From assembly GCA_019246495.1 (NCBI GenBank), contig JAFAQI010000226.1:1-5010 (forward strand): a DNA stretch of 5,010 nucleotides. Direction: 5' to 3'. This document shows positions 1-5,010 of this stretch, piece by piece. The notes under the pieces were generated by a model. The model was not told where the DNA came from and did no database searches. It saw nothing but the letters and a program-made list of their open reading frames with translations. Made by a program: the position numbers and the translations under genes. Origin of the DNA: Frankiales bacterium (GTDB lineage: Bacteria; Actinomycetota; Actinomycetes; JAFAQI01). Numbering within the stretch: the stretch's first letter is position 1; the number at the start of each line of letters is the position of its first letter.

Positions 1-35
1 CGCGCACCTTGCCCGATGGCGACAGATGGCTGACT

Positions 36-218
36 TCACCCGGATGGCGCAACCGGTGGCTCCGCCACATCGTCGGGGGTGCCCGTGCCGAGCAGCTTCA
101 ACGTCCACGCCCGCCGGCACGACCGGCACCACCAGGCGCCGTGCGTGTCACCATGCGGGCGAAGGTCTTCGTCGCCGCAGTAGGGGCAGTAGAACGGGAC
201 CGCGCGCGCCGTCGACAT
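36..218 (-). CDS. Small zinc-ribbon protein downstream of sulfite reductase
   Basis: This 60-residue protein has two CxxC knuckles: C11-P-Y-C14 and C31-R-S-C34, 16 residues apart. That is the pattern of a zinc ribbon binding one metal ion. The second knuckle sits in a WWCRSCRRAW context followed by TLKLLG; the last 15 or so residues are Pro/Gly-rich and probably disordered. Its ATG is 6 nt after the sirA stop with no Shine-Dalgarno of its own, so it is probably translated by coupling to sirA. Similar small CPYCG proteins are, from memory, common next to actinobacterial sulfite reductase genes, but their biochemical role is unknown to me. Linkage suggests a role in sulfur assimilation, for example as a redox or metal-handling partner of SirA; this is inference. 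The CxxC spacing, operon position and absence of a better frame make it a real gene rather than a chance ORF. Confidence 0.85.
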   Translation of the reverse strand: MSTARAVPFYCPYCGDEDLRPHGDTHGAWWCRSCRRAWTLKLLGTGTPDDVAEPPVAPSG

Positions 219-224
219 GCGTCG

Positions 225-1895
225 CTACTGGATGAGCGCTTCGTCAGCGCGGCGTACCCAGGACGCGAACGACTCGCCCTCGTTGCGGCCGGCAATGTAG
301 TTGCGCAGGACGCGCTCGACGTAGTCCGGCAGCTCAGCCGTCGTCACCTTCAGCCCCCGCAGCTTGCGGCCGAACGCGGCGTCCATGCCGATCGCGCCGC
401 CGAGATGCACCTGGAAGCCTTCGCCGTCGTTGACGATCGAACCCTTCAAGCCGATGTCGGCGGTCTGGAAGCGCGCGCACGAGTTGGGGCAGCCATTGAG
501 GTTGATCGTCACCGGGGTGTCGAAGTCGGGCAGCCGCCGCTCGAGCTCGGCGACCAGGTCGACCGAACGCGCCTTGGTCTCGACGATCGCGAGCTTGCAG
601 AACTCGATGCCGGTGCAGGCCATCGTGCCGCGCCGGAAGACCGTCGGGCGGACACGCAGGTCGCGCGACTCCAGCTCGCCGACGAGAGCCTCGACCGCGT
701 CGTCACCGACATCGCGGATGACGCACTTCTGCTCGACGGTCAGCGCGACGGTGCCGCTGCCGAACCGCTCCGCGAGGTCGGCGATCTCGGTGAGCTGCGT
801 GCCGCTGGTGCGACCGGAGTTGAACGCGAAGCCGACGTAGTTCCGGCCGTCCTTCTGCTTGCGCACACCGACGTGGTCGCGCGGACCACTCGGCGGCGGC
901 GGCGCCGGACCGTCCTCGAGCGCGTGACCGAGATAGGTCTTCTCCAACATCTCTCGGAACTTCTCCACGCCCCAGTCGGCGACGAGGAACTTCAGCCGCG
1001 CGCGGTTGCGTGACTTGCGATAGCCGTAGTCGCGGAAGAGCTTGGTGACGCCGGCCCAGACCTCGGGGACGTCGTACTCCTCGACGAAGACACCGAGCCG
1101 CTGGGCGAACATCGGGTTCGTCGACAGGCCGCCACCGACCCACAGGTCGAAGCCGACGCGACCGTCGTCGTGGCGAACACCGACGAACGAGATGTCGTTG
1201 ATCTCGTGACCGACGCAGTACGCCGCACAACCGCTGACCGCTGTCTTGTACTTGCGCGGCAGATTCGAGAACTCCTTGTTGCCTTCCGCGAGCGCATTGG
1301 TCCGCAGCAACGCATCCGTACCGTCGATCACTTCATCTGCGTCCACGCCGGCGAGTGGGCAGCCGAGCATGTTGCGCGGGGTGTCACCACACGCCTCGGT
1401 CGTCGACAGACCGACCTCTTCGAGCCGCCGCCAGATCTCTGGCACGTCCTCGATGCGGATCCAGTGCAGCTGCACGTTCTGCCGGTCCGTGACATCGGCG
1501 ACGTCGCGGCCGAACTCCGTCGCGATCGTCGCGACCGTGCGGAGCTGCGTGTTGGTCAGCAACCCGCCGGGGATGCGCACGCGGAGCATGAAGTACTCGT
1601 CGTCGAGCTCCTCGGGCTCGAGGATCGCGGTCCTGCCGCCGTCGATGCCGGGGCGGCGCTGCGTATAGAGCCCCCACCAGCGGAACCGGCCGCGCAAGTC
1701 GGCCTGGTCGATCGACGCGAACCCGGCCTTCGAATAGATCGTCTCGATCCGGTGGCGAACGTTGAGGCCGTCGTCATCTTTCTTGGTGCGCTCGTTCGGG
1801 TTCAGCGGCTCGAGATGGCCCAGCGCCCACTGACCCTGACCGGCCGTACGCCGGTTGGGTCGCGCGGGACGGGCGGGACGCCCGATGTCGGCCAT
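225..1895 (-). CDS. sirA: Ferredoxin-dependent assimilatory sulfite reductase (SirA/NirA type)
   Basis: This 556-aa cytoplasmic enzyme reduces sulfite to sulfide with six electrons from ferredoxin, using siroheme coupled to a [4Fe-4S] cluster. The cluster ligands are visible as C427-x5-C433 (ACTGIEFC) and C469-x3-C473 (NGCPNSC). The N-terminal half carries the ferredoxin-like motifs LRGRFRWWGLYTQR (about 67-80) and DVTDRQNVQLHWIRIED (134-150), and the second half repeats the fold. Tyr77 and Cys169 are 92 residues apart, the same spacing as the Tyr69-Cys161 pair that is cross-linked next to siroheme in Mycobacterium tuberculosis NirA. This favours sulfite over nitrite reductase, as does linkage to cysH. 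The length matches that family. The frame stays open 116 codons upstream, but ATG 1895 gives the usual short N-terminus before GQWALGHLEPLNP. No good Shine-Dalgarno precedes it; a small hairpin does. The gene is the first full gene of the leftward operon and follows a leader peptide. Confidence 0.95.
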   Translation of the reverse strand: MADIGRPARPARPNRRTAGQGQWALGHLEPLNPNERTKKDDDGLNVRHRIETIYSKAGFASIDQADLRGRFRWWGLYTQRRPGIDGGRTAILEPEELDDEYFMLRVRIPGGLLTNTQLRTVATIATEFGRDVADVTDRQNVQLHWIRIEDVPEIWRRLEEVGLSTTEACGDTPRNMLGCPLAGVDADEVIDGTDALLRTNALAEGNKEFSNLPRKYKTAVSGCAAYCVGHEINDISFVGVRHDDGRVGFDLWVGGGLSTNPMFAQRLGVFVEEYDVPEVWAGVTKLFRDYGYRKSRNRARLKFLVADWGVEKFREMLEKTYLGHALEDGPAPPPPSGPRDHVGVRKQKDGRNYVGFAFNSGRTSGTQLTEIADLAERFGSGTVALTVEQKCVIRDVGDDAVEALVGELESRDLRVRPTVFRRGTMACTGIEFCKLAIVETKARSVDLVAELERRLPDFDTPVTINLNGCPNSCARFQTADIGLKGSIVNDGEGFQVHLGGAIGMDAAFGRKLRGLKVTTAELPDYVERVLRNYIAGRNEGESFASWVRRADEALIQ

Positions 1896-1900
1896 GGGAA

Positions 1901-1914
1901 GAAGGAGGCCCTTC
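1901..1914 (-). promoter_or_regulatory. Hairpin in the sirA ribosome-binding region
   Basis: On the sirA mRNA, GAAGG and CCTTC flank a GCCT loop, giving a perfect 5-bp stem that ends 5 nt before the ATG. The only Shine-Dalgarno-like run upstream, GAAGGG, lies in its 5' arm. The stem could limit initiation. The stem is visible; a regulatory role is inferred. Confidence 0.4.
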
Positions 1915-1951
1915 GACGGAGTTGAGCGAACGTGGACGGACGCGTAGCTGC

Positions 1952-2026
1952 TCAGCCGGCGAGACAGACCGCGCTGGCGACGCGCTGGAGGTCGACGTGG
2001 CGACGCCACACCAAACCCGCGTCCAT
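1952..2026 (-). CDS. Putative Cys-containing leader peptide for sirA
   Basis: This 24-residue ORF begins MDAGLVW and continues with the core RRHVDLQRVASAVC, ending CLAG and a TGA. The core matches the HVDLxRVxSAxC pattern of short leader peptides known upstream of sulfur and cysteine genes in actinobacteria. Its single Cys is residue 21, four codons from the end. The stop lies 56 nt before the sirA ATG. There is no Shine-Dalgarno before ATG 2026, so translation may be leaderless or start at an in-frame TTG or GTG (codons 5 and 6). The likely role is sensing charged Cys-tRNA or cysteine through ribosome progress and adjusting downstream expression; this is inferred from position and family. 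It is too short to recognise by length alone. The main support is a second, near-identical peptide on the other strand facing cysH. Confidence 0.8.
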   Translation of the reverse strand: MDAGLVWRRHVDLQRVASAVCLAG

Positions 2027-2180
2027 AAGCCGGCCGCAGCGGCCCGCACTGTTGCTCACGCAACAAGTGTGTCACACTGACGGCATGTCTTGGCTCGTGC
2101 TGCAGCCTGCGCGGAGCTCGGTCGACCTCGTCGCCCGGCTCCACGTCGACCTGCAGCGCGTGCAGAGCGCGGTGTGTCGC
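1961..2180. repeat. Imperfect inverted repeat formed by the two leader ORFs
   Basis: Minus-strand 1961-2000 and plus-strand 2141-2180 match at 33 of 40 positions by hand alignment. Both start CCACGTCGACCT and share CAGCGCG and AGCGCGGT. The arms encode the HVDLQRVxSAVC cores of the two leader peptides, so the repeat reflects their homology: either an inverted duplication or strong constraint on the peptide. The 140-nt interval between the arms contains the presumed promoters and two palindromes. Confidence 0.8.
2047..2078. promoter_or_regulatory. Two adjacent palindromes between the divergent leaders; candidate operator/promoter
   Basis: Two perfect palindromes sit side by side. GTTGC-TCAC-GCAAC at 2051-2064 extends to CACT/AGTG (2047-2050 and 2066-2069) with one bulged base. 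AGTGTG-T-CACACT at 2066-2078 overlaps that extension by a few bases. They occupy most of the 58-nt gap between the two leader start codons (2026 and 2085), where promoters for both arms should lie. CACACT (2073-2078) is at the right distance to be a weak -10 for a leaderless plus-strand leader at 2085. I cannot name the regulator, and I see no convincing -35/-10 pair for the minus-strand leader. Confidence 0.45.
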
Positions 2181-2189
2181 GGCTGCTGA
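2085..2189 (+). CDS. Putative Cys-containing leader peptide for cysH
   Basis: This 34-residue ORF starts MSWLVLQPAR and ends with the core RLHVDLQRVQSAVC followed by RGC and TGA. It belongs to the same HVDLxRVxSAxC leader type as the minus-strand peptide at 1952-2026. It carries two Cys codons, TGT (residue 31) and TGC (residue 34, the last codon). The stop is exactly 56 nt before the cysH ATG, the same gap as on the sirA side. The ATG has no Shine-Dalgarno, which fits leaderless initiation; an in-frame GTG at 2097 is an alternative start. The Cys31 codon lies in an arm of a potential mRNA stem reaching to just upstream of the cysH ribosome-binding site. The inferred role is cysteine-responsive attenuation of cysH and the chelatase gene. 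Confidence 0.82.
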   Translation: MSWLVLQPARSSVDLVARLHVDLQRVQSAVCRGC

Positions 2190-2227
2190 GCTTTTCGCTC
2201 TCCCGGCCCCCTTTTCCGCGACCCACT
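2171..2227 (+). promoter_or_regulatory. Potential attenuator stem linking leader Cys codon to the cysH 5' region
   Basis: GTCGCGG (2176-2182) pairs perfectly with CCGCGAC (2216-2222), and after one T/C mismatch GGTG (2171-2174) pairs with CACT (2224-2227), the outermost pair being G-U. The 5' arm covers leader codons Val30 to Gly33, including Cys31; the 3' arm ends 8 nt before the cysH Shine-Dalgarno. A competing pairing, CGCTC (2196-2200) with GAGCG (2233-2237), would cover part of that Shine-Dalgarno and excludes the first stem in a nested fold. Ribosome position on the leader could choose between them. The complementarity is visible; the switch is inferred. Confidence 0.4.
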
Positions 2228-2245
2228 CTGTCGAGCGAGGCATCC

Positions 2246-2986
2246 ATGACTTCGGCGCTCGAGCTGGCGTATCTGCATGACGACGGTGTCGCCCTGCACG
2301 AGCTCTACGACGACTCCGACGGGCTCAACCATCTAGCCGCGCACGCCGGCGCGGCACTCGAAGGCGCGACGCCGCAGGACGTGCTGCGGTGGGCGTTCGA
2401 TCGCTTCGGCAAGCGCTTCGCGATCGCCACGTCGATGGCTGATGCTGTGCTGCCGCACATGGCGGCGCAGATTCGGCCGGGCGTACCGATCATCTTCCTC
2501 GACACCGGTTATCACTTCGCCGAAACGATCGGCACCGCCGCTGCGGTCGAGTCGACCGTCGATATCACGCTGCTGCGGGTGCGTCCGGACCAGACGGTCG
2601 AGGAGCAGGACGCGACGTTCGGCAAGGACCTGTGGGCGCGCGACCCAGACCTGTGCTGCCGCATGCGCAAGGTGCTGCCGCTGCGCAAGTCGTTGGCGCC
2701 GTATGACGCGTGGGCGTCGGGCATCCGTCGCGACGAGACCGACCAGCGTCGTCAGGTCGGCTTCGTCGAGTGGGACTCGACGAACTCGAAGGTGAAGGTC
2801 AACCCGCTCGCCGGGTGGACTGACGACGACGTCGACCGTTACATCGCCGACAACAACGTGCTGGTGAACCCGCTGCTGTCGGACGGTTACGGCTCGGTCG
2901 GCTGCGCGCCGTGCACCGTGCGAGGCGCCGGTCGCAGCGGTCGTTGGAACGGCACCGGCAAGGTGGAGTGCGGGATCCACGGCTGA
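2246..2986 (+). CDS. cysH: Assimilatory adenylyl-sulfate (APS) reductase, iron-sulfur type
   Basis: This 246-aa cytoplasmic enzyme reduces activated sulfate to sulfite using thioredoxin. The P-loop-like nucleotide motif is IATSMADAVL (60-69), followed by IIFLDTGYHFAET (82-94). Cys137-Cys138 (DLCCRMRKVLPL) and C220-x2-C223 (GCAPC) are the four [4Fe-4S] ligands that mark APS reductases (EC 1.8.4.10) and are absent from cluster-less PAPS reductases. The catalytic Cys is Cys242 in the C-terminal VECGIHG. The substrate-binding SGIRRDETDQR (159-169) is also present. Length is typical. ATG 2246 is chosen over upstream starts because GCGAGG (2235-2240) sits 5 nt before it and the upstream frame runs through the leader region. 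Cysteine-responsive control is likely given the leader at 2085-2189. The chelatase gene overlaps its 3' end, so the two are almost certainly cotranscribed. Confidence 0.96.
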   Translation: MTSALELAYLHDDGVALHELYDDSDGLNHLAAHAGAALEGATPQDVLRWAFDRFGKRFAIATSMADAVLPHMAAQIRPGVPIIFLDTGYHFAETIGTAAAVESTVDITLLRVRPDQTVEEQDATFGKDLWARDPDLCCRMRKVLPLRKSLAPYDAWASGIRRDETDQRRQVGFVEWDSTNSKVKVNPLAGWTDDDVDRYIADNNVLVNPLLSDGYGSVGCAPCTVRGAGRSGRWNGTGKVECGIHG

Positions 2987-3624
2987 CCCGCCTGGTCATC
3001 GCCGCTCACGGCTCGGCTGATCCGCGGTTCGCCGCGACGGTCGACGCTCTCGCTGATCGGCTGCGCGCGTTGCGCGACGGCCTCGACGTCGCGGTCGGCT
3101 ACCTCGAGCACGGGCCGCCCGATCTGCGCGACGTCTGCGGTGACGGCGATGTCGTTGTGCCGCTGTTGCTGTCCCGCGGCTATCACGCGCTCGTCGACAT
3201 CCCCGCGCAGGTGCCCGGGGCCCGCGTCGCCGATGCGGTCGGCCCGGATGCGCGGCTGGTGGATGCGCTCGTCGACCGGCTAGCGGAGGCCGGCTACGAC
3301 GGGACGTCGGCGGTTGTCTTGGCAGCGGCCGGCTCGTCTGACCCGGGTGCGCTCGACGACGTGCGCCTCGCAGCCGCGCAGCTCGCCGACCGGCTCGGGG
3401 TGGACGTGACCGCGGCGTTCGTCTCCGCCGGGTCGCCTCGCCTCGAGGACCTCGACGAGCCGACGGTTGTCGCGTCGTACCTCGTCGCGCCGGGCGCCTT
3501 CCACGACGCCATGCTGCGCTGCGGCGCCGCGGTCGTCAGCGCACCGATCGGCGACCATCCCGCGCTCGCCGAGACCCTGTTGGCCCGGTACGACGAGACT
3601 TGTCAGAACGTGAGGCGGCTATAG
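2968..3624 (+). CDS. Sirohydrochlorin chelatase (CbiX/SirB family)
   Basis: This protein of about 218 aa inserts a metal into sirohydrochlorin. Next to sirA the likely product is siroheme (Fe), although cobalt chelatases of vitamin B12 synthesis belong to the same family. The N-terminal active-site motif is LVIAAHGSADPRF with His14; LLLSRGYHALVDIP supplies His73; Glu47 lies in YLEHGPPD. The second half repeats the fold (VVLAAAGSSDPGA, then VAPGAFHDAM with His179), but the first His is replaced by Ala, so only the N-terminal site looks complete. The start is uncertain. GTG 2968 overlaps cysH by 19 nt but has no well-spaced Shine-Dalgarno. CTG 2983, overlapping the cysH TGA, would give the more usual short N-terminus (TRLVIAAHGS) with GGGA 7 nt upstream; GTG 2911 is less likely. 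The last nine codons lie inside an inverted repeat. Confidence 0.9.
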   Translation: MRDPRLTRLVIAAHGSADPRFAATVDALADRLRALRDGLDVAVGYLEHGPPDLRDVCGDGDVVVPLLLSRGYHALVDIPAQVPGARVADAVGPDARLVDALVDRLAEAGYDGTSAVVLAAAGSSDPGALDDVRLAAAQLADRLGVDVTAAFVSAGSPRLEDLDEPTVVASYLVAPGAFHDAMLRCGAAVVSAPIGDHPALAETLLARYDETCQNVRRL

Positions 3625-3646
3625 CCGGTTGACGTTCTGACAAGTC
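3597..3646. terminator. Inverted repeat between convergent genes; probable bidirectional terminator
   Basis: GACTTGTCAGAACGT (3597-3611) and ACGTTCTGACAAGTC (3632-3646) form a perfect 15-bp stem. The 20-nt loop contains a further 12-bp palindrome, CGGCTATAGCCG (3616-3627). The left arm lies within the last codons of the chelatase gene, and the right arm ends one base before the stop codon of the convergent peptidase gene. There is no T-run on either side, but many high-GC terminators lack one. The symmetry suits both transcripts. Confidence 0.75.
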
Positions 3647-3647
3647 G

Positions 3648-4763
3648 TCAGACGCCGGGTCGGACGGCTCCGGCGTAGTCCGAGCGGAACGCCGAGCTGA
3701 TGCGGACGTTCGCGCCGGTGTAGGGCGCCTCGATCATGTTGCCGTTGCCGATGTAGAGCCCGACGTGGTGTAGGTCGCTGCCGAAGAAGACGAGGTCGCC
3801 GGGCTGGAGCTGGTCGCGGCTGACGTGTGCGCCTTCGTTCCACTGGCTGCCGGTGTAGTGGTCGAGATAGACGCCTGCCTTGGCCCAGACATACATCGTC
3901 AAGCCGCTGCAGTCGAAGGTGTCCGGCCCGGCCGCGCCCCACTGGTAGGGCTTGCCGAGCTCCCGATACGCCCACTGCACCGCGACGCGGGCGCCACCCG
4001 AACCGCGAACGACCGGCTGGTTCACCGGCTGCGCGGTGAGCGCGTTGGCAGCAGCCGCGGCGGCCGCAGCCCTCGCGCGCAACGCGGCCGCGGCCTGCTC
4101 GGCGGCGATTCGCGCGGCCCGCGCCTTCGCGGCCCGGATGATCGCGGCCTCGCGTGCCTGGAGCTTGTGCAGGATCTGCTGCTCCTGGTGCGCAGCCGCG
4201 AGGACCGACGCCCGGTCGGCCTGCATCTGCTTCGTCGCGCCCGCCTGCTGGGCGAACGCCGCCCGGGCGGTGGCCTGCGCCTGCTCCTGCTCGCGCTGCG
4301 CGGCGGCCACCTCGGCGAGCATCTGCGTCTGGCTGTTGGCGACCGCCTGCAACGTCGCGACCTTGTCGAGGAACGCCTGCGGCGAGCTTGCGGTCACGCC
4401 GATCGTCGTGTCGAGTCCCTGGCCCTGGTACGCCGCCACCGCGAACGCGCGCACCGACCGCTCGGCAATGGCGAGCCGCTTCTGGGCGTCGGCGAGGTGA
4501 TGCTGCGCCGTCAGCGCCGCAGTTCGGGAAGCGGCGAGCTTGATGCGTGCGGCGTTGTAGCGCTCGGTCGCCACCTCGGCCTGCTGATCGAGGGCGTGGA
4601 GCTGCGCCTGCGCGGCGGCGATGCGCTGCTTCACCGACTGCGCCTGCGCCGCGCCCGATCCGACGACAGACGTCGTCGCAGCGAGAGCGACCAGCGCGAC
4701 ACCGGACGCGATGCGTCGGAGGGAGGGTGCGGGACGTCGGGTGAGGCGGAGGGGGGGCGCCAC
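3648..4763 (-). CDS. Secreted coiled-coil NlpC/P60 peptidoglycan endopeptidase (RipA-like)
   Basis: This 371-aa protein should be exported and cleave peptide stems of the cell wall. The N-terminus has Arg-rich residues (R6-R17), a hydrophobic core (about 19-34) and an AQA-Q cleavage site after Ala41, a Sec-type signal peptide. Residues 43-245 are an Ala/Gln/Arg-rich region with heptad character, a long coiled coil split near AFAVAAYQGQG (about 106-116). An Ala-rich stretch (about 222-242) and a short Pro-containing linker lead to the NlpC/P60 domain (257-371). The triad is Cys285 (FDCSGL), His333 (HHVGLYIG) and Glu345 (NMIEAP); the His-Glu spacing equals that of RipA His432-Glu444. GTG 4763 is the start, as an in-frame stop lies at 4788-4790. 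AAGGAG (4776-4781) is 12 nt upstream, somewhat far. A c-di-AMP riboswitch precedes it. It has no evident link to the sulfur genes. Confidence 0.95.
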   Translation of the reverse strand: MAPPLRLTRRPAPSLRRIASGVALVALAATTSVVGSGAAQAQSVKQRIAAAQAQLHALDQQAEVATERYNAARIKLAASRTAALTAQHHLADAQKRLAIAERSVRAFAVAAYQGQGLDTTIGVTASSPQAFLDKVATLQAVANSQTQMLAEVAAAQREQEQAQATARAAFAQQAGATKQMQADRASVLAAAHQEQQILHKLQAREAAIIRAAKARAARIAAEQAAAALRARAAAAAAAANALTAQPVNQPVVRGSGGARVAVQWAYRELGKPYQWGAAGPDTFDCSGLTMYVWAKAGVYLDHYTGSQWNEGAHVSRDQLQPGDLVFFGSDLHHVGLYIGNGNMIEAPYTGANVRISSAFRSDYAGAVRPGV

Positions 4764-4775
4764 GAGGCCGGCGTA

Positions 4776-4781
4776 CTCCTT
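4776..4781 (-). promoter_or_regulatory. Ribosome-binding site of the NlpC/P60 gene
   Basis: AAGGAG on the minus strand, within GGAAGAAGGAG, is a strong Shine-Dalgarno. It lies 12 nt before GTG 4763 and 9 nt after the closing stem of the riboswitch aptamer, close enough for aptamer folding to affect ribosome access. Confidence 0.7.
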
Positions 4782-4787
4782 CTTCCG

Positions 4788-4910
4788 TCAACCGCCTACC
4801 GGGTTAGCTGTCGGGTTCGGGCGCGGAAGAGGCTCGCCCTACGGCCGGTTGCCCGGCCGATTCACCCCAGGGAAGTGGTTCCCCGGCTCTTTGCAGACTC
4901 GGCGGTCCGT
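4788..4910 (-). ncRNA. c-di-AMP riboswitch (ydaO/yuaA class)
   Basis: The minus strand carries the conserved blocks of this class in order: CCGGGGAACCA (near 4876-4886), GGGGTGAATC (4859-4868), a stem of seven base pairs capped by a GCAA tetraloop (4842-4859), GTAGGG (4837-4842), CGCCCGAACCCGACAGCTAA (about 4804-4823) and GGTAGGCGG. The closing helix P1 is ACCGCC (4901-4906) with GGCGGT (4791-4796); AAGAG (4887-4891) pairs with CTCTT (4827-4831). The layout follows the Thermoanaerobacter tengcongensis ydaO aptamer as I remember it. The class senses cyclic di-AMP and is usually an OFF switch for cell-wall hydrolase and osmolyte genes. Here it controls the NlpC/P60 gene. No terminator fits between P1 and the start codon, so control is probably at translation. 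Confidence 0.95.
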
Positions 4911-4929
4911 CTCGCCGCGAGGCCCCAGC

Positions 4930-4941
4930 GACCTGCAGGTC
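4930..4941. repeat. 12-bp palindrome in the riboswitch 5' leader
   Basis: GACCTGCAGGTC is a perfect 12-bp palindrome between the predicted transcription start and the aptamer. In RNA it could form only a 4-bp stem with a TGCA loop. It may be a protein-binding site or chance; I see no partner copy in the window. Confidence 0.3.
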
Positions 4942-4959
4942 ACGAAACGGTTGCGACTG

Positions 4960-4988
4960 AAGGTATCGATCCGGCCAGGCGGGGACAA
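4960..4988 (-). promoter_or_regulatory. Candidate promoter for the riboswitch-NlpC/P60 transcript
   Basis: On the minus strand, TTGTCC (4983-4988) and TACCTT (4960-4965) are separated by 17 nt and fit an actinobacterial housekeeping promoter (TTGNNN, TANNNT). Initiation would fall near 4953, about 47 nt before the aptamer closing stem. The hexamers and spacing are visible; activity is inferred. Confidence 0.55.
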
Positions 4989-5010
4989 GCACCCTCCCCG
5001 GGCCAGCGGG

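Follow-up and report, generated by a model that had tools for sequence, protein, structure and literature searches.

The sequence analysed here, referred to below as the window, is a stretch of 5,010 nucleotides from a Frankiales bacterium (assembly GCA_019246495.1, contig JAFAQI010000226.1, positions 1 to 5,010 of the forward strand). Two divergent genes, sirA and cysH, flank the region of interest. The sirA gene (225..1895, minus strand) encodes a sulfite/nitrite reductase family protein of 556 amino acids with PF01077 and PF03460 domains; none of the NCBIfam models checked against this protein scored above its own cut-off. The cysH gene (2246..2986, plus strand) encodes a PAPS/APS reductase family protein of 246 amino acids (PF01507, with NF002537 above cut-off), and CysH is likely to be the sulfite-making partner of SirA. 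An Rfam scan of 1850-2300 gave zero matches at E up to 1. Directly downstream of sirA, an ORF of 60 amino acids (36-218, minus strand) with two CxxC pairs (MSTARAVPFYCPYCG...) likely encodes a small zinc-ribbon protein. At the other end of the window, a c-di-AMP riboswitch (RF00379, 4778-4914, minus strand; 94.8 bits versus a cut-off of 38) is followed downstream by the gene for an NlpC/P60 protein (3648-4763, minus strand), which is an ordinary arrangement.

The initial annotation had placed two outward-facing, divergent and related peptides in the sirA-cysH gap, and both are present. The cysH leader ORF (2085..2189, plus strand) starts at ATG 2085 and encodes the 34-residue peptide MSWLVLQPARSSVDLVARLHVDLQRVQSAVCRGC. 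The sirA leader ORF (1952..2059, minus strand) encodes 35 residues from GTG 2059; an inner ATG at 2026 would give a 24-residue form ending at the same stop (1952). GTG 2059 was preferred because it is kept in all five genomes that carry both leaders, the window's own genome included, at a fixed distance from a palindrome (see below). Both ORFs are predicted to be leaderless. The peptides were scored with the NCBIfam profile NF042934 ('putative leader peptide', cut-off 27 bits): the cysH leader reached 29.8 bits and the sirA leader 36.8 bits as the 24-residue form or 35.6 bits as the 35-residue GTG form, with genome-wide E-values of 5.5e-6 and 6.8e-8, respectively.

Polycysteine leaderless short ORFs of mycobacteria, the Ms4527A and Ms5788A families, were reportedly described by Canestrari in 2020. 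Neither leader reached the cut-off of 45 bits for Ms4527A (NF042936), scoring 27.1 (cysH leader) and 32.5 bits (sirA leader; 31.3 in the GTG form). The sirA leader also missed the cut-off of 45 bits for Ms5788A (NF042933), with 17.1 bits (16.4 in the GTG form), and the cysH leader was unlisted for that model. The polycysteine run is absent: the cysH leader ends in CRGC and the sirA leader has a single C near its end. As far as the available accounts of Canestrari 2020 extend, the two leaders resemble the mycobacterial ORFs in being short, predicted leaderless, placed before sulfur genes, provided with Cys near the end and covered by NF042934. They differ in that a single Cys codon, or two separated ones, lies near the end, that both fall below the Ms4527A and Ms5788A cut-offs and that they stand back to back on a shared palindrome. 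By family, both are new members of the mycobacterial leader kind, without its polycysteine feature.

The window's own family was sampled with 12 draft genomes of 68-100% completeness, ten of which gave a sirA match. At all ten sirA loci cysH is divergent to sirA. The comparison of intergenic regions among relatives that the initial annotation had suggested recovered the cysH leader at 10/10 of these loci and the sirA leader at only five (G000, G001, G007, G008 and G009, from three genera), so that the expected matched pair of known actinobacterial Cys-type leaders, one for each gene, is kept in these five genomes. The profile scores given above, the recurrence in close relatives and a comparison at the codon level show both ORFs to be real, beyond chance. 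In the 15-codon core the mean dN is below the mean dS for the cysH leader (0.080 and 0.431; ten genomes) and for the sirA leader (0.121 and 0.695; five genomes), and variable columns are distributed over codon positions 1, 2 and 3 as 4, 2 and 10 (cysH leader, ten genomes) and 3, 3 and 10 (sirA leader, five genomes). Within each of the five paired genomes, 28-34 of 42 nucleotides are identical between the two leaders.

A distance of 56 nt from each leader stop to the next gene start had also been pointed out. It is correct for both leaders in the window; across the family the spacing ranges over 38-56 nt before cysH (ten genomes) and 46-56 nt before sirA (five genomes), and the exact value, being variable among relatives and peculiar to the window's own genome, was discarded as a design feature. 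The cysH leader of this genome is longer by 24-27 nt (eight or nine codons) than those of the other nine family genomes; the extra segment lies N-terminal to the conserved core and its size is near that of one ribosome footprint. A third leader of the NF042934 family is found in the same genome (C247; L003 1415-1519, minus strand), with the three Cys codons TGC, TGC and TGT, and precedes an ORF that was named sulfurtransferase-like by eye.

The two leaders share a conserved Cys codon, TGT, at 2175..2177 (plus strand, cysH leader) and 1964..1966 (minus strand, sirA leader), corresponding to profile position 19. One tRNA presumably reads both Cys codons, UGU by wobble. TGT occupies this position in 53/53 distinct leaders from named and family loci (position assigned by eye) and in 120/120 leaders (80/80 and 40/40) from 64 genomes of the class. 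The latter set was taken from the best-scoring matches downward, omitting the window's own order, G032:C251, G081:C2, one match that ends before position 19 and the lowest matches; it probably shares at least two places with the set of 53 (L153 with L006 and L158 with L004). The remaining Cys codons between match start and stop are mostly TGC, with 100 TGC and 16 TGT in the 80 leaders and 21 and 7 in the 40 (121 TGC and 23 TGT in sum), and at the two further positions where Cys is frequent in the 80 leaders, TGC accounts for 35/39 and 32/35 codons. The TGT share of Cys codons in the sirA and cysH orthologues is 10/87 in the family and 54/1100 elsewhere. Base pairing was rejected as the cause of the invariant TGT: over 79 leaders, downstream pairing of the wobble U is lower than in shuffles (0.35 versus 0.42), so RNA structure offers no class-wide explanation. 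The invariant codon is a more general result than the divergent pair, and since TGT and TGC encode the same amino acid, exchanging this single base would probe the mechanism of the sensor directly. As far as found in the literature, mycobacteria, whose runs of Cys codons attract notice, are the only bacteria in which the signal read by such leaders has been tested. The uORFC-8-2 motif before cysS of Rhodobacterales is likewise a Cys-codon uORF linked to attenuation; unlike the present leaders it has, in the available text of PMC8632094, two tandem Cys codons with UGC dominant and a U run fitting an intrinsic terminator. The base that follows the conserved TGT in the 120 leaders is C in 90, T in 23, A in 6 and G in 1 (pyrimidine in 113/120).

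Between the leaders lies a perfect palindrome, AGTGTGTCACACT (2066..2078, both strands, axis 2072), which may represent two extended -10 elements placed back to back. The pattern AGTGTGnCACACT is perfect in 5/5 paired genomes, in each of which exactly six bases separate it from the ATG or GTG on either side; the start codons (2085 on the plus and 2059 on the minus strand in the window) are thus each 13 bp from the axis in all five. Each half reads TGTGnCACACT on its own strand and its TGTG lies opposite the -10 of the other half. Class-wide, a strict TANNNT ending 6-8 nt before the leader start was found for 47/80 leaders, compared with 0-10/80 at fifteen control distances, which suggests that leaderless starts are common in this leader family throughout the class. 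According to the available text of PMC8079986, the -10 element of S. lividans is TAnnnT and 17% of its transcripts are leaderless.

Bidirectional promoters, as described in the accessible portions of PMC12825309 and PMC10268837, have a symmetric -10 that is read both ways, with one polymerase orientation at a time and starts 7-25 bp apart. The Warman/Grainger promoters of these reports resemble the palindrome in their symmetric -10 region, which here too would be used in both directions. Their common start spacings are 10, 18 and 23, whereas here the extended -10s abut, the starts, as deduced from the spacing, are 26 bp apart (one above the 7-25 bp definition) and both products would be leaderless leader ORFs. 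A scan of 1850-2300 for the sigma-70 consensus found no promoter. Because of the 26-bp separation, the hexamer CACACT, in which the first T of TANNNT is missing, and the absence of a consensus promoter in the scanned interval, the firing of two leaderless mRNAs by one symmetric promoter is rated no higher than likely.

Starting from the two ORFs, their family and codon-level conservation, the palindrome at its 13-bp spacing in 5/5 genomes and the invariant UGU, all of which are directly observed, we put a probability of roughly 60% on the reading that the divergent NF042934 pair is transcribed leaderless from one symmetric promoter and raises sirA and cysH upon stalling at UGU. One mRNA would run towards sirA and the other towards cysH. 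RNA polymerase would presumably occupy the palindrome in only one orientation at any moment, and the two transcripts would thus share, and compete for, a single site. Ribosomes stalling at the conserved UGU codon are predicted to raise the expression of sirA and cysH. That cysteine or Cys-tRNA controls the stalling is inferred by analogy with M. smegmatis, in which cysteine-responsive attenuation is credited to Canestrari 2020 in the available parts of PMC13236596, PMC9031893 and PMC9094748; Cys-rich uORFs in mycobacteria are also indicated by ribosome profiling and conservation in the accessible text of PMC4633059. For cysH, the Shine-Dalgarno may be paired with, and hidden by, the initial 6-9 nt of the leader; a ribosome held at UGU may open a hairpin starting within this codon, and queued ribosomes covering the leader start may then free the Shine-Dalgarno. 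On the sirA side such pairing is not predicted and the leader might act otherwise, for example through Rho.

More tentatively, and at somewhat less than even odds, the arrangement may be described as one promoter site with twin ribosome checkpoints, in which the checkpoint is the fixed UGU and the leader start hides the cysH Shine-Dalgarno. Sulfite making and sulfite using would then draw on one polymerase site and pass separate ribosome checkpoints. The checkpoint of this family in Actinomycetes would be one wobble-read UGU, nearly always followed by a pyrimidine and set behind a conserved nascent chain of the RxHVDLxRVxSAx type, rather than a run of Cys codons, and the switch on the cysH side would respond to the frequency with which the leader start is occupied by ribosomes. 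A divergent pair on one palindrome would offer a natural case of a likely two-way promoter that feeds two matched ribosome checkpoints.

The 5' end of the cysH leader mRNA (AUGUCUUG, 2085..2092, plus strand) is predicted to pair with the cysH Shine-Dalgarno segment (CGAGGCAU, 2236..2243, plus strand). In the window's own genome the helix has 8 bp, two of them G-U pairs, at -8.9 kcal/mol; the leader-start window ranks only 45 of 96 and 11% of shuffles are as good (p 0.11). Across the ten genomes the predicted helix measures 6-9 bp. The leader mRNA begins with AUGUCCUC in 7/10 genomes, GAGGAC is found within the cysH Shine-Dalgarno in 8/10 and the first ten leader bases are the best or joint-best anti-Shine-Dalgarno window in 8/10 (second in G009). 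In G001 both arms of the helix differ in sequence and still pair (GUGGCUUU with GAGGCCAC). Permuting the arms between genomes gave p 0.03, a modest value for ten related genomes. The predicted probability that the Shine-Dalgarno is paired to leader nt 1-10 is at least 0.96 in 7/10 genomes and low in the others (own genome, G000, 0.19; G001, 0.10; G004, 0.04). According to the models, complementarity between the leader start and the Shine-Dalgarno of cysH shows some covariation and is strong in most relatives and weak in the window's own genome. The LEU element before leuA, as given in the available part of PMC1262725, is comparable in that part of its leader ORF base-pairs with the downstream gene's Shine-Dalgarno; in LEU that part is the regulatory codon run, whereas here it would be the start-codon region of the leader.

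A second predicted structure, the Cys-codon hairpin (2176..2222, plus strand), pairs GUCGCGG (2176-2182), which begins inside the UGU, with CCGCGAC (2216-2222). The whole-leader alignments A1 and A2 misplaced the 3' arms, so pairs were counted without them and covariation was assessed by arm permutation. The arms covary (GUCGC/GCGAC, GUCGAA/UUCGAC and GUUGC/GCAAC) and 0/50,000 permutations over the ten genomes were as good, although permutation values overstate independence because the genomes are related and are not strict probabilities. Only 3/10 genomes have the Cys-codon arm as their top window for the hairpin (it ranks 11 of 93 in the window's own genome), and for several arms, pairing with another genome's region is stronger than pairing with the region of the same genome. 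In the folding model, a stall at the first Cys codon alone did not free the cysH Shine-Dalgarno (mean unpaired probability 0.11 to 0.12), and this simple version was rejected. Masking nt 1-18 opened it partly (0.37); as only this masking does so, the openers would be queued or initiating ribosomes and not a stalled one alone. On the sirA side, the pairing probability between the start region and the leader was 0.00 in 3/5 genomes and 0.17 and 0.04 in the others, masking had little effect and leader-start pairing was dropped as a mechanism common to both sides.

The near lack of pairing on the sirA side, together with the placing of the covarying hairpin right at the sensor, would suit leaders that act on transcription, with fast completion of the leader letting Rho or a weak hairpin stop the polymerase, stalling letting it through and Shine-Dalgarno pairing secondary or absent. 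Rho was indeed proposed for mycobacterial cys leaders by Seliverstov 2005, in the accessible text of PMC1262725. No intrinsic or canonical terminator was found in 1850-2300, however, the leader start is a top-ranking partner of the cysH Shine-Dalgarno in most genomes, as given above, and the attenuation credited to Canestrari 2020 in the available part of PMC13236596 is one of translation; we regard transcriptional action as possible but doubtful. The leaders proposed in 2005 (PMC1262725, available part) are, like the present ones, candidate Cys peptides with no obvious terminator, and precede cys operons; they have runs of Cys codons, stand singly and show no conserved hairpin, whereas a covarying hairpin and Shine-Dalgarno pairing are predicted here.

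The palindrome could instead be bound by a local regulator, the leaders having ordinary promoters, separate or overlapping, nearby. Its perfect dyad symmetry is what such a site would show, and a second dyad, TGTTGCTCACGCAACA (2050..2065, both strands; TGTTGC-TCAC-GCAACA), adjoins it over the start codon of the sirA leader. This second dyad is exact (TGTTGC-N4-GCAACA) in 3/5 paired genomes and is a possible operator. The outgroup G032 (the same MAG as L005), in which a CbiX-like gene (named by eye) lies ahead of cysH, also carries two divergent leaders; there the two boxes are separate. Against a regulator, the palindrome pattern occurs once per genome in 6/12 family genomes, always at the corresponding place and nowhere else, which implies no regulon; a reversed control pattern occurred 0 times in the 12 genomes. 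In addition, the start codons lie at the exact -10 distance on both sides in 5/5 genomes, and the clade without the sirA leader retains before its cysH leader an asymmetric, TGTGnCAGACT-like box, with CAGACT (one CAGAAT) behind TGTG (one TATG), and lacks the symmetric half. We therefore consider a regulator site unlikely and retain the symmetric promoter with UGU stalling as the preferred reading.

The sirA tree separates the paired genomes from those with the cysH leader only, as sister groups (support 95/98 and 100/99; G001 fills 31% of the columns), and the cysH tree supports the same groups more weakly (89/90 and 75/85). An eleventh genome, G002, shows the cysH leader on a contig (L113, G002:C124) that ends just past the palindrome, with the sirA side beyond the contig end; G002 and G003 gave no sirA match and are outside the ten loci. 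The sirA leader is also found in the outgroups G012, L004 and L005. A single loss is therefore the most parsimonious history, and the leader was likely lost in one sister clade of five genomes. Its absence throughout that clade and the near lack of a predicted RNA switch on the sirA side might suggest a decaying relic, with the cysH leader alone of importance, but this is very improbable given the low dN relative to dS in the five copies, the invariant TGT and GTG spacing and the outgroup leaders. A necessary joint tuning of both arms is not supported, as the sister clade keeps the cysH leader without the sirA leader, and the hypothesis of a sulfite balance is weakened because one clade lacks one leader. 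For the reading of one promoter with two stalling leaders, this clade is a ready comparison.

In a sample of 118 genomes of the class, leaders of the NF042934 family were found in 79. Among the matches listed, close divergent pairs occur only in the window's own genus (G000 and G008) and in G032, with a looser one in G081, which is a lower bound. A phylum-wide draw of 149 genomes gave six matches at E up to 1e-5, one being the window's own genome and the other five belonging to its class, and none outside the class at that threshold. Among the literature matches listed, the available texts contain no account of a divergent pair, a shared promoter or an invariant UGU, which is no proof of absence. 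As far as this search reaches, three features are new: the divergent pair with its single palindrome, the predicted base pairing between leader start and Shine-Dalgarno, and the invariant TGT. The palindrome, the base pairing and the codon, as well as the likely leaderless starts, go beyond the initial annotation.

Shortly upstream of sirA, the element GAGAC-N6-GTCTC is present in 5/5 family genomes without the sirA leader, and we take it to resemble an McbR-type operator. It was not retained as a known McbR site, as the available text of PMC2580772 contains neither TAGAC nor GTCTA. The element lies at L089 1793, L090 1460, L091 1800, L092 1447 and L093 1807, near where the leader ends in the paired clade.
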